Origin: Bacillota bacterium
Lineage (GTDB): Bacteria; Macinerneyibacteriota; Macinerneyibacteria; Macinerneyibacteriales; DSCS01
Length of the DNA: 51,500 bases
Assembly: GCA_011048995.1 (NCBI GenBank)
Contig: DSCS01000005.1
Span: 1-51,500, forward strand
Direction of reading: 5' to 3'
Shown here: one piece after another, positions 23,954 to 44,853 of the stretch
How positions within the stretch are numbered: position 1 is the first letter of the stretch
How the letters are laid out: each line of letters begins with the position of its first letter
Position numbers and translations under genes: made by a program
Notes under the pieces: model-generated
Database searches by the model: none
The model's input: the letters and a program-made list of their open reading frames with translations, nothing else
What the model was told of the DNA's origin: nothing

Positions 23954-25249
23954 ATGATAGAGCGCTATACCCGTGAAAAGATGGGGGCTGTGTGGACGGA
24001 AGAGAATAAGCTCCGTAAATGGCTGGAAGTGGAATTGGCTGTATGTGAGGCGTGGCACACAAAAGGGGTTATCCCGGACGAAAGCCTCAAGACGATCCTT
24101 AAAAAGGCTGATTTTAATCTGGACAGAGTGAGGGAGATCGAAGATGTGACCCATCATGATGTCATTGCCTTTTTGACATCGGTGGCTGAATTTGTGGGCC
24201 CCGATAGCCGTTATATTCATTGGGGAATGACCTCCTCTGATATGCTTGATACGGCAAACGGGCTGCTTATGAAAGAGGCCGGAAGATTACTGCTCCATGA
24301 AGTCGAACGGTTGATCGAAGCCCTGGGTGAGCGGGCAAAAGAACATAAATATACTCTGCAGATCGGTCGCTCTCACGGGATCCATGCCGAGCCTATTACT
24401 TTTGGACTTAAGCTTGCAGTTTGGTATGAGGAGATGAAACGCAACCTGAAAAGGCTCCGGCAGGCTGTCGAGGATGTCGCCGTTGGGAAGATCTCCGGTG
24501 CTGTGGGCACCTTTGCCAATATTGACCCTGAAATCGAAGAGATGGTCTGTGAAAAATTAGGCCTTGCCGCCGCCCCTGTATCCAATCAGATTGTTCAAAG
24601 AGACCGCTATGCCTTCTTTATGGCGACATTAGCGGTTATTGCTTCAACGCTGGATAAAATGGCCACAGAACTCAGAGCTTTGCAGAAAACGGAAGTCCTG
24701 GAGGTCGAAGAGCCTTTTAAAAAGGGACAGAAGGGGTCATCGGCTATGCCCCATAAAAGGAATCCCATTATCGGAGAGCGGGTTTGCGGCCTGGCTCGGC
24801 TGATACGGTCGAATTCCTTGGCGGCCATGGAAAACGTAGCGCTTTGGCATGAGCGTGATATTTCCCACTCGTCTGTAGAGAGAGTGATCCTCCCTGACTC
24901 AACGATTGCTTTGGATTATATACTGGACAAAATGACCTGGGTGATCTCAAACATGGCGGTGTATCCTGAAAACATGATGAAAAATCTGGAAAAGATGAAA
25001 GGGCTTGTCTTTTCCCAGTATTTTCTACTCAAACTCACGCAAAAGGGGATGACCCGGGAAGAAGGCTACGCTTTGGTTCAACGCAATGCCATGAAAGTAT
25101 GGGAAGAAGGAAAAGCGTTCAACGAGGTGCTGCTTGAAGACAAAGAATTCACGAAACATTTTTCATCGGAAGAGATCGAGAAAGCCTTTGATTACAATTA
25201 TCATCTCCGCAACGTTGACAAGATCTTCGCCCGCCTCGGCTTAGTATAG
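23954..25249 (+). CDS. purB: Adenylosuccinate lyase
   Basis: 431 residues from ATG 23954; a longer frame back to 23837 would run through the terminator and promoter. It catalyses two fumarate-releasing steps of purine synthesis (SAICAR to AICAR, adenylosuccinate to AMP). Visible: MIERYTREKM start, THHDVIAFL, WGMTSSDMLDTA, QIGRSHGIHAEP with the active His, and the superfamily signature GSSAMPHKRNP with the mobile catalytic Ser. It lies 7 kb from purH-purD under its own promoter. Its TAG stop (25247-25249) lies inside the first bases of repeat copy A, so the last residues may have been set by the repeat insertion. Confidence 0.95.
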   Translation: MIERYTREKMGAVWTEENKLRKWLEVELAVCEAWHTKGVIPDESLKTILKKADFNLDRVREIEDVTHHDVIAFLTSVAEFVGPDSRYIHWGMTSSDMLDTANGLLMKEAGRLLLHEVERLIEALGERAKEHKYTLQIGRSHGIHAEPITFGLKLAVWYEEMKRNLKRLRQAVEDVAVGKISGAVGTFANIDPEIEEMVCEKLGLAAAPVSNQIVQRDRYAFFMATLAVIASTLDKMATELRALQKTEVLEVEEPFKKGQKGSSAMPHKRNPIIGERVCGLARLIRSNSLAAMENVALWHERDISHSSVERVILPDSTIALDYILDKMTWVISNMAVYPENMMKNLEKMKGLVFSQYFLLKLTQKGMTREEGYALVQRNAMKVWEEGKAFNEVLLEDKEFTKHFSSEEIEKAFDYNYHLRNVDKIFARLGLV

Positions 25250-25274
25250 GGGTCGCGTCTTGTATTTAGTATTA
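25246..25274 (+). repeat. Transposase-associated repeat, copy A (solo)
   Basis: 29 nt identical to copies B and C, starting ATAGGGGTCGCG and ending TTTAGTATTA. It continues ACGCTG and a short CGCTGAGAGCG hairpin, matching copy B for part of the way. It starts at the purB stop codon. Confidence 0.9.
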
Positions 25275-25410: not shown

Positions 25411-25465
25411 CTATTGAAATCATCGGTATTTGGACGAAGATAATACTATGTTCAAAGGAGGGTGT

Positions 25466-26464
25466 ATGAAGAAACATATCTTTATTTCGGTATTAATAGC
25501 TTTATTCTCCGGAATAGGAGGTCTTCTAATGGCGGATGAAAACCACATTGTAGAAAAGGTGAATGACCATCTCTATGTGATCCAAGGATTAGGCGGGAAC
25601 ATCTCTTTTCTGATTACAGATGAGGGTGTTTTTCTCATCGATATGGGGAATAGCCGGAAAGACGGAGAAACCGTTCTCGAAGAGATTAGAAGGATTACCG
25701 ACAAGCCTTTGATCTATGTCTTTTTGACTCATTATCATGGAGATCATGTCAATGGTATGGCTGCTCTCCCAGTACATGTTCCGGTTATTGCTACAGAGCA
25801 TACTTTGGAAAATTTAAAGAATATAACAACTCCGAACAGAGCCTATAATATCAAAGAGGCTTATCCTGCAGCTATCAAAGATTTGAAAGAAAAGGCGCAG
25901 AAAGACTCGACAGACTCTGAAAAGGCTGCCCGTGAACTGAAGGAAATGCAAAAAAGGTTTGAAGCATATAAAAATGAATCTGTCCGATATCCCGATGAAA
26001 TTTTTGAAACCCGGCGAACCCTTCGGGTAGGGGACTTTACCGTGGAACTCTTTCTTCCGGGGCCGGCCCATACCGGAGGCAATGCTATGGCATTTATTAA
26101 AGAAATGAATGTATTGATTACCGGGGATAACCTCTTTCATAATGATTTTCCCTATATTGATATCCGGGGCGGAGCGGATCCTTATCATTGGATAACGATT
26201 GCCCGTGAACATAGCAAAAAAGGTTATGATATCATTATTCCCGGTCATGGCCCTGTAGCAAAGGGTACGGAGGCTTTGGCTCGTTTTGCCGATTATCTGG
26301 AGTATGCTGCAAATGAGGTGAGAAAAGCAAAAGAAGACGGACTCACTGAAGACGAAGCCGTGGAAAAGATCACTATGGAGCCGTATACCCATTTGGGGAA
26401 AGCCCGTTTCCGGGAAAACAATATCCGAGTGTTTTATAACATAGGGGTCGCGTCTTGTATTTAG
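25466..26464 (+). CDS. Secreted metallo-beta-lactamase-fold hydrolase
   Basis: 332 residues from ATG 25466 (AAAGGAGGGTGT upstream). A signal peptide (KKHIFISVLIALFSGIGGLLMA) puts it in the periplasm or envelope. The fold motifs are complete: FLIDMGNS, the zinc motif THYHGDHVNG, AHTGGNA with the third His, TGDNLFHND with the bridging Asp, and PGHGPVAKG with the last His. It resembles SoxH/quinoprotein-relay and class B-like hydrolases rather than a proven beta-lactamase. A charged insert (about 130-180) separates the halves. The last residues IGVASCI and the TAG stop are encoded by repeat copy B, so the native C-terminus has been replaced. Substrate is unknown. Confidence 0.85.
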   Translation: MKKHIFISVLIALFSGIGGLLMADENHIVEKVNDHLYVIQGLGGNISFLITDEGVFLIDMGNSRKDGETVLEEIRRITDKPLIYVFLTHYHGDHVNGMAALPVHVPVIATEHTLENLKNITTPNRAYNIKEAYPAAIKDLKEKAQKDSTDSEKAARELKEMQKRFEAYKNESVRYPDEIFETRRTLRVGDFTVELFLPGPAHTGGNAMAFIKEMNVLITGDNLFHNDFPYIDIRGGADPYHWITIAREHSKKGYDIIIPGHGPVAKGTEALARFADYLEYAANEVRKAKEDGLTEDEAVEKITMEPYTHLGKARFRENNIRVFYNIGVASCI

Positions 26465-26469
26465 TATTA
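26441..26469 (+). repeat. Transposase-associated repeat, copy B (left end of the element)
   Basis: 29 nt identical to copy A and to the reverse complement of copy C. It overlaps the last 24 nt of the metallo-hydrolase gene. Inward it continues ACGCTG into the hairpin at 26470. Confidence 0.93.
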
Positions 26470-26489
26470 CGCTGGGGGTGCCCCCAGCG
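26470..26489. repeat. GC-rich hairpin at the left end of the element
   Basis: CGCTGGGGG, loop TG, CCCCCAGCG: a 9-bp perfect stem directly inside repeat copy B. Such a head-plus-hairpin arrangement is what REP-type transposases recognise. Copy A has a related, shorter hairpin in the same position. Confidence 0.75.
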
Positions 26490-26587
26490 TTCAATGAATG
26501 TGACAAAAACAGGGAGAATAATCCCGGAAATTTATTTTTCCTTTAATCTTCTTGACCTAAACAGTGTCATTTAGTGTTGGCTTTAAA

Positions 26588-26604
26588 TCTTGTGCTTAGT
26601 ATTA
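26588..26604 (+). repeat. Degenerate internal repeat copy
   Basis: TCTTGTGCTTAGTATTA matches the 3' part of the repeat at 15 of 17 positions. It lies 14 nt past the end of the transposase gene, inside the element. Confidence 0.5.
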
Positions 26605-26617
26605 AAGATGTAAGAAT

Positions 26618-27580
26618 TCATTTTTTGCCAAGAGTGACGTCTATTTTTTCCTTCATCACTTTGAGCTCGTGTGCAACATCAATCTTTTTATTGAATGATC
26701 TCAGGAGGGGATGGACACTATTATATTTGATGCCAAAGATCGAAGCGATCTCTTTTAAAGATAGATTCGTGTACTTTTTCAATGTGTAAAGAAATAAAAG
26801 ACGAAGTTGGTTATTTTTCCGTTTGACCAAAATTTGACTTTGAGAAACATGAAATAAATTGAAAAAGAGAGAAAATATATCTTCTTTTGTAAATGAAATG
26901 ACAGCTTTGTAGTCGGGAATTTCTGAAGCAGATGTTTCTTTGAGAGGATCCCCTTTGAGTTTATTTTGTATCTTTTTTTGAAAATCTTCATCTCCCAAAA
27001 TCCCATTTGTTCCATATACTTCTTTTGGGTTGATATCACGATTATTAATCTGCCAACGCATGAGGAAGTTTTTATACTCTTTTGCTGACCTTCCCTTTAA
27101 CAATTCATCGGTTTTTAGCCACTGAAAAGTATTTTCCTTTTGTCCGATAAAAAAAGGAAGGCTGCTCCAAGGATAAAATCCGTCTAAAGAGCAGATGCCG
27201 GCTCGAACAGGATTGAGGTGAATATAAGCTCCTAATGTCTCAAAATAATTTTCTTTTTCAACGAGTATAGCTTTATAGCGGCCCTGGAAAACAGATCCGA
27301 TAAGGCTGTGCCGGGCTTTGAAAAAGTTTGAGTATGCTGTGTTTAAAAAGTGGATGGCTGTGGATAAATTAGCCATGGGAGTCTGAAGGAGGAGATGATA
27401 ATGGTTTCTCATGAGAGTATAGCAATGAATCACAGTCGAATACTTTAAGTACATTTCGTTGATCAGTTCAATGAAATGCTCTCTGTCCCTTGTGTCAAAA
27501 TAGATGTTCTCTTTTCGCTCGCCTCTGGAAAAAATATGGTATAAAGCGTTTTCATACTGAATGCGTAATGGACGTGCCAT
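26618..27580 (-). CDS. REP-associated tyrosine transposase (Y1, HUH superfamily)
   Basis: 320 residues from ATG 27580, chosen because MARPLRIQYENALYH is the usual family start. Single-strand DNA nuclease/ligase domain: HFIELI, then MRNHYHLLLQTP with the metal-binding HYH at 60-62, and LGAYIHLNPVRAG with the likely nucleophile Tyr119. The C-terminal third adds a helix-turn-helix (SLKEIASIFGIKYNSVHPLLR), a fused DNA-binding domain also seen in longer members. It would cut and join the repeat ends flanking it. A TTGACA/TATGCT promoter (18-nt spacing) puts the start point next to the ATG and no RBS is seen, so it is probably leaderless and weakly translated. The frame is intact. Confidence 0.92.
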   Translation of the reverse strand: MARPLRIQYENALYHIFSRGERKENIYFDTRDREHFIELINEMYLKYSTVIHCYTLMRNHYHLLLQTPMANLSTAIHFLNTAYSNFFKARHSLIGSVFQGRYKAILVEKENYFETLGAYIHLNPVRAGICSLDGFYPWSSLPFFIGQKENTFQWLKTDELLKGRSAKEYKNFLMRWQINNRDINPKEVYGTNGILGDEDFQKKIQNKLKGDPLKETSASEIPDYKAVISFTKEDIFSLFFNLFHVSQSQILVKRKNNQLRLLFLYTLKKYTNLSLKEIASIFGIKYNSVHPLLRSFNKKIDVAHELKVMKEKIDVTLGKK

Positions 27581-27586
27581 ACCAAT

Positions 27587-27616
27587 AGCATAAAAAAAAA
27601 ACAAAGGCATTGTCAA
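27587..27616 (-). promoter_or_regulatory. Promoter of the transposase (apparently leaderless)
   Basis: On the minus strand TTGACA (27616-27611) and TATGCT (27592-27587) are 18 nt apart. Six nt separate the -10 from the ATG at 27580. Confidence 0.6.
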
Positions 27617-27650
27617 GGAAGAATTGATAAAAATGAAAAATTCTGGTCGA

Positions 27651-27679
27651 TAATACTAAATACAAGACGCGACCCCTAT
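27651..27679 (-). repeat. Transposase-associated repeat, copy C (right end of the element)
   Basis: Exact reverse complement of copies A and B over 29 nt. On its inner side it continues ATC instead of the ACGCTG hairpin, as copy D does, so left and right ends differ. Confidence 0.93.
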
Positions 27680-44232: not shown

Positions 44233-44292
44233 GGAGTTACTCTTTTTTTAGTTTCATACCAAGGTGTGGGCTTGGAGATGCAGGAGTGTCAT

Positions 44293-44853
44293 ATGTGTGA
44301 TAAAAAGCAAACAGATAATACTAAATACAAGACGCGACCCCTCCACAAGATATCGATAACGGAGAAGGAGCGGGCGTTTAACTTCAGGACGGCGGCTCTC
44401 ATCCTCAGGGGAAGCGAGGTCCTGTTTCATACGATTGAAGGAAACAATTTCTGGGTTCTGCCCGGCGGCCGGGTTCACATGGGGGAAAGCAGTATCGAGG
44501 CTTTACACCGGGAGATCGCTGAAGAACTGGGGGCCCGGATCGAGATCGTCCGTCCCTTATGGGTCGTTGAGAATTTTTTTGTTCATCAGAAAAAATTACA
44601 TCAGAATATCGGGTTTTATTATTTGACCCGGTTTAAATCACCTTGCGATTTCTATGATGCAAATGAGGTGTTTCAAAGGCAAGAGGGGGGGGAGACTCTT
44701 CTGTTTCAGTGGTTGTCTCCGGATCAGATCATGGAGGAGACTTGTTTTCCCGCTTTTCTTAAAGAGCGGGTGAATTCTCTGCCTTCTGTCCTGGAACATG
44801 TGGTCCATTGGGATGATGTCTCCCCTGATATTATTGCCCGGGGTTTAGAGTAA
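44293..44853 (+). CDS. NUDIX hydrolase with a repeat-derived N-terminus
   Basis: 186 residues from ATG 44293 (AGGAG 6 nt upstream). The Nudix box GX5EX7REUXEEXGU is intact as GGRVHMGESSIEALHREIAEELGA, preceded by FWVLP. This family hydrolyses nucleoside diphosphates linked to another group. The catalytic domain begins about residue 20 (KISITEKERAFNFRTAALIL). Residues DNTKYKTRPL, just before it, are read from repeat copy D, so an insertion has replaced or extended the native start. The 3' end is followed by a two-way terminator. Confidence 0.88.
   Translation: MCDKKQTDNTKYKTRPLHKISITEKERAFNFRTAALILRGSEVLFHTIEGNNFWVLPGGRVHMGESSIEALHREIAEELGARIEIVRPLWVVENFFVHQKKLHQNIGFYYLTRFKSPCDFYDANEVFQRQEGGETLLFQWLSPDQIMEETCFPAFLKERVNSLPSVLEHVVHWDDVSPDIIARGLE
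44316..44342 (-). repeat. Transposase-associated repeat, copy D, inside a gene
   Basis: 27 nt identical to the reverse complement of copies A and B (core AGGGGTCGCG ... TAGTATTA on the minus strand). It lies in frame within the NUDIX gene, 17 kb from the transposase. Its inner flank (ATC) matches copy C. Confidence 0.9.

Follow-up and report, generated by a model that had tools for sequence, protein, structure and literature searches.

A TIRYT-like Y1 transposase element in Macinerneyibacteriota and the two-module architecture of its family's terminal repeats

The described systems closest to the element reported here are the TIRYTs or TIRtrons, in which a Y1 transposase is flanked by long terminal inverted repeats (TIRs) with an outer motif of the GGGG type (Di Nocera 2013; PMC3733652). 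According to the text of that paper, the motif GGGGWSAS is common to some published TIRs, and the TIR repeats of TIRYTs are dispersed in the genome singly or as dimers. A further trait of TIRYTs is a transposase that nicks its own TIR. The text of a later survey (Quentin 2018; PMC6006769) delimits a TnpA-Y1 subclass 2.1, the subgroup 2.1.2 of which has the motifs NH[YF]H and Y[IV]HLNP, a Bac_DnaA_C-like C-terminus and no hairpin REP; such proteins are treated there as not associated with typical insertion sequence (IS) features, and it is left undecided whether their helix-turn-helix (HTH) recognises the ends. REPtrons combine a RAYT such as E. coli TnpAREP (PDB 4er8) with REPs and REPINs, the REPs being hairpins with a GTAG foot, while elements of the IS200/IS605 group (IS608, ISDra2) carry a Y---Q motif and subterminal hairpins that differ between left and right, and lack both TIRs and an HTH. 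The element analysed here belongs to an already known kind, and what is new is the architecture of the ends at the level of the family. A two-box layout such as the one set out below was found neither in the text, as distinct from the figures, of PMC3733652 and PMC6006769 nor elsewhere in the literature searched, as far as which shows the architecture is undescribed.

In the window, by which we mean the whole stretch of 51,500 nucleotides that was analysed, a Y1/HUH transposase gene (26618-27580, reverse strand) lies between a left TIR at 26441-26469 (forward strand) and a right TIR at 27651-27679 (reverse strand) that match as an inverted repeat at 29 of 29 bp, just as a preliminary description of this DNA had stated when it reported a Y1 transposase with a fused HTH between perfect inverted repeats. 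The left end comprises a flanking ATA, the head GGGGTCG (26444-26450), the linker CGTC (26451-26454), box 1 TTGTATT (26455-26461), box 2 TAGTATT (26462-26468) and a final A. In the right end, which is identical, the head occupies 27676-27670, the linker 27669-27666, box 1 27665-27659 and box 2 27658-27652. The two boxes are alike at six of seven positions. A degenerate copy reported earlier at 26588 is real; it is an internal, headless copy of the two-box part (TTGTGCT TAGTATT; 26588-26604, forward strand; TCTTGTGCTTAGTATTA) that covers the inner half only, with 2 mismatches, and 0.01 matches of that quality are expected in the window. The element, which extends over about 26444-27676 (1233 bp), is probably an IS-like unit of the TIRYT/TIRtron family, a judgement that applies jointly to the whole of the explanation developed here.

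The likely start codon of the transposase is the ATG at 27580 (MARPLRIQYENALYH), giving a product of 320 aa with the HUH motif NHYH at residues 59-62, the catalytic Tyr119 in YIHLNP and a DnaA-domain-IV-like HTH at about 228-305. Domain matches were obtained to Y1_Tnp (E 8e-11) and Bac_DnaA_C (E 1e-4), and H60, H62, Y119, N123 and P124 are invariant across 47 relatives. A profile of the family matches DnaA domain IV structures (1j1v, 5e-8) as well as TnpAREP (4er8, 3e-5), and the same two folds are returned by Foldseek for the AlphaFold2 model (pLDDT 89.6), with 4er8 as the best match of the model and 1j1v as a match of the C-terminal domain (target TM 0.79, rmsd 2.0). Under the same joint judgement, we consider it likely that the transposase is a single-tyrosine HUH enzyme carrying a C-terminal HTH derived from, or resembling, DnaA domain IV.

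These features fit both the TIRYTs and the TnpA-Y1 subclass 2.1. The Y1 HUH domain with its catalytic tyrosine, the long TIRs and the dispersed single and dimeric copies are all shared with TIRYTs, although the window TIR GGGGTCGC agrees with the published GGGGWSAS at seven of eight positions and is thus one base off. The motifs NHYH and YIHLNP, and DnaA domain IV as recognised by profile and by predicted fold, are those of subgroup 2.1.2. With IS200/IS605 the element has in common the Y1 HUH catalytic domain and that no target duplication was seen; membership in that group was rejected, as the window motif is YIHLNP, TIRs are present and the right end has no hairpin.

The preliminary description had read the locus as REP-like, and it could indeed be a REPtron of the ordinary type, in which a RAYT goes with REPs made of a head and a hairpin and the head is long by chance. 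The HUH catalytic fold and the dispersed inverted pairs of short repeats are common to both, the closest solved fold is that of E. coli TnpAREP, the NCBIfam model REP_Tyr_transpos (NF047646) matches the transposase at 55 bits, and hairpins lie just inside the left end and behind the copy at 25249. However, the NCBIfam score falls below the cut-off of 80, and whereas REPs are hairpins, the window ends are unstructured: folding of the 29-nt end itself yielded no hairpin (0 kcal/mol), and the end starts with GGGG and lacks a GT[AG]G foot. A 9-bp hairpin that adjoins the left end on its inner side (26469-26490, forward strand) has no counterpart at the right end, does not define the shared repeat and was rejected as part of the recognition unit; among relatives, the common inner half is defined by sequence and not by structure. 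We regard an ordinary REPtron as very improbable, and of the REP-like reading the terminal repeats and dispersed copies survive, but the REP head and hairpin give way to a TIR-flanked TIRYT.

A 26-nt core of the ends occurs in nine exact copies in the 1.88-Mb assembly, in which no copies with one to three mismatches and 0 matches to a reversed control pattern were found, so that the dispersed copies of the preliminary description are borne out at the level of the genome. The window itself holds four core matches, with 0 expected by shuffling. The nine copies consist of the element's own two ends, three single copies, one of them near a contig end, and two further inverted pairs, which span 113 nt on contig C27 and 253 nt on contig C44; of the single copies, one lies on contig C10. 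Both solo copies claimed earlier for the window were recovered. The first (25249-25274, forward strand) is located directly at the stop codon of purB (TAG, 25247-25249) and is followed by a GC-rich hairpin, and identity between the copies at 25246 and 26441 extends to 34 nt, reaching into CGCTG; the second (44316-44341, reverse strand) is read in frame in the extended 5' part of a NUDIX-type ORF (44266-44853). No match to the exact core was found in viral contigs. The solo ends and inverted pairs (68-253 bp) would be non-autonomous derivatives comparable to REPINs or MITEs, and the inverted pairs may have been mobilised as such.

The copies are also conspicuous for their position relative to genes. 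An MBL-fold hydrolase in the window (25430-26464) ends in a tail ...GVASCI that is encoded by the inserted end, and a methyltransferase of the same-genus species G001 (L017, 1260-2003) likewise ends in ...GVASCI from an inserted end. Other copies supply the stop codon to purB and to a lipoprotein gene, and one follows directly after the stop of an alr-like gene.

The comparison within the host phylum covers three genomes. In G001, the genome of which is 98% complete, no transposase was detectable, and four exact cores are present as two inverted pairs. One of these pairs is orthologous to the host pair on C44; its two 27-nt ends have stayed unaltered (54/54), while identity in the interior is 171/200 and divergence hence about 15%, a difference that is significant by Fisher's test (p 6e-4; 0.0015 with the upstream flank added). 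A stem similar to the hairpin at 26469-26490 is found inside this pair and its orthologue, and stems of the CGCTGGGGG...CCCCCAGCG type occur at 26469-26490 of the window and in the pair interiors of L018 and L016, adjoining or inside copies. At the site corresponding to the window element, gene order in G001 is as in the window with the transposase missing, and the spacer is so diverged that the exact empty-site junction is unreadable. At the purB-distal site G001 retains a shortened remnant, TATAGGGGTCGCG, of the copy at 25249. This purB-distal copy (L063, reverse strand, about 77-105) has apparently been shortened by a deletion between two GCG triplets.

It had been suggested from the identity of the copies that the family is active or recent. 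This does not follow, since four exact copies are kept by G001, in which no transposase was detectable, and copy identity alone does not show recent activity; as the orthologous pair demonstrates, copies can remain identical over long periods, so that identity is no clock here. Copies in relatives without the transposase, which the preliminary description itself had named as speaking against its reading, were found in one relative, G001. The nine identical copies look recent, and selection, gene conversion or a recently lost transposase may be what keeps copies identical. The repeats might accordingly be mainly host elements today, that is stop-codon or 3'-end elements or selected binding sites, with a transposase that is incidental or was lost in relatives. 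The unchanged ends of the orthologous pair in a species without detectable transposase and the several copies at gene 3' ends, where they give the stop codon or the last codons, argue for such a role. However, only a single orthologous pair is involved, the purB-distal copy has decayed in G001, and at 98% completeness the transposase of G001 could have been missed or recently lost. Moreover, transposases within one genome have TIRs unlike each other's, which is what cognate transposon ends would lead one to expect, and we consider it unlikely that host elements are the main identity of the repeats.

The latter point derives from the one other Y1 transposase in the host genome (contig C31), which is 42% identical to that of the window and has inverted ends of its own, GGGGTCA GGTC TTGAATA TTAG. 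Compared with the window ends, the outer half is nearly the same and the inner half differs; its end GGGGTCAG agrees with GGGGWSAS at 8/8 positions. Each transposase in the genome has its own cognate ends. Short inverted pairs of the second-type end are present on contig C59. Pairs of 68-75 nt with the second-type head (L226, 820-894; L016, 416-485; L017, 2351-2418 and 3614) can fold into long, REPIN-like hairpins, and the second-type copies at L226 3413 and L017 3614 look alike between the two species. The more distant relative G002 has a third end type, GGGGTCA GGTC TTCACAT TTATACA, many copies of which lie about 110 nt from contig ends (L228-L235); contig breaks of this kind are as expected of a collapsed multi-copy element and suggest one of recent date in G002.

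From genomes of other phyla, 120 distinct transposases with flanking DNA were collected, for 95 of which an automatic search found an inverted repeat of score at least 14. In three other genomes, near-identical elements (97-99%) share about 1.05-1.11 kb, and the shared stretch stops at the terminal GGGG or within a few bases of it, the elements lying in both orientations and between differing flanks. The repeats are therefore the borders of the mobile unit in these relatives, and the multi-copy elements in other genomes demonstrate that the family is mobile. No target-site duplication was seen in the multi-copy elements of these three genomes, and bases -1 and -2 outside the ends are A/T in about 81-90% of cases at both ends. 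In many relatives (L031, L032, L035, L038, L070, L084) about 20 nt of the inverted repeat are shared with the 3' end of the transposase gene, whose final codons or stop are thus supplied by the repeat.

When 44 non-redundant ends are anchored at GGGG, positions 1-7 form a near-invariant head GGGGTCA, positions 8-11 a linker and positions 12-25 a variable part. Pairs of bases at a distance of seven within the variable part match at a frequency of 0.588, where 0.325 would be expected (z 10.4); none of the other offsets from 1 to 11 gives an excess. Ends chosen solely by a head upstream of the gene, with no inverted repeat required, give the same period of seven (z 10.8). Within an element the two 7-nt boxes agree at 4.05 of 7 positions against 2.77 when permuted (z 7.8), and after strong thinning to 15 strongly divergent ends at z 4.1.

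The two parts of the end covary with different domains of the protein, as assessed by Mantel partial correlations on pairwise similarities among 56 elements of less than 75% protein identity. The head and linker (positions 1-11) vary with the Y1 domain and with the middle region and not with the HTH. For the boxes (positions 12-25) the covariation is with the HTH core (partial 0.264, p 0.001) and, to a lesser degree, with the Y1 domain (0.185, p 0.009), and positions 27-32 just inside the end follow neither. After thinning to 35 elements, the link between HTH and boxes is kept (0.217, p 0.008) and that between Y1 and boxes is weaker (p 0.10). Caution is in place with these partial correlations, which are of modest size (0.2-0.3), and a correlation with the boxes is found for the Y1 region too. 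When residues were compared with end positions in a column-by-column scan of mutual information, the signal was diffuse; it did not single out the recognition helix, and no contact residues are named. In comparison with Quentin 2018, the elements here are multi-copy and sharply bounded in several genomes, and their boxes track the HTH.

Correlations of this kind fit a division of labour, which we propose, between a catalytic core that would read the head and an HTH that would read the boxes. Alternatively, recognition of the boxes could fall to the Y1 core or to DNA/DNA guide pairing, with the HTH targeting the replication fork, an idea found in the text of Quentin 2018 (PMC6006769). The resemblance of the HTH to DnaA domain IV and the correlation of the Y1 region with the boxes that persists after correction (0.19, p 0.009) are consistent with this. 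It is nevertheless doubtful, as no region has a higher partial correlation with the boxes than the HTH core, which shows none with the head, and as a direct-repeat layout in itself offers no guide/target pair.

In the two-module explanation, which taken as a whole we hold to have a good chance of being right, the outer GGGGTCR and the 4-nt linker would be recognised by the catalytic core, which may cut a single strand just outside the GGGGTCR head, after the A/T-rich dinucleotide, and the inner tandem 7-nt boxes would be bound physically by the HTH, giving each transposase its cognate ends. Going further, TIRYTs may be an HUH lineage in which hairpin recognition was replaced by a captured DnaA-domain-IV-like module, two copies of which, on duplex DNA, read the two tandem 7-bp boxes, the Y1 core cutting at the fixed GGGGTCA head; for this extension the chances appear even. 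Against the two-module explanation itself it counts that a period of 7 bp is tight for two DnaA-like domains on duplex DNA.

The class, widespread yet little studied, was called in 133 of 395 genomes of one phylum, and the findings suggest that this large class includes genuinely mobile IS-like elements besides domesticated single-copy genes. If the extended reading with a captured DnaA-like module is true, both boxes and the HTH would change in concert as end specificity evolves. The covarying boxes make the role of the DnaA-like domain, which the 2018 survey left undecided, directly testable by a swap of domains and ends, and the architecture hints at a way in which these enzymes could locate their ends where the customary DNA hairpin is missing.
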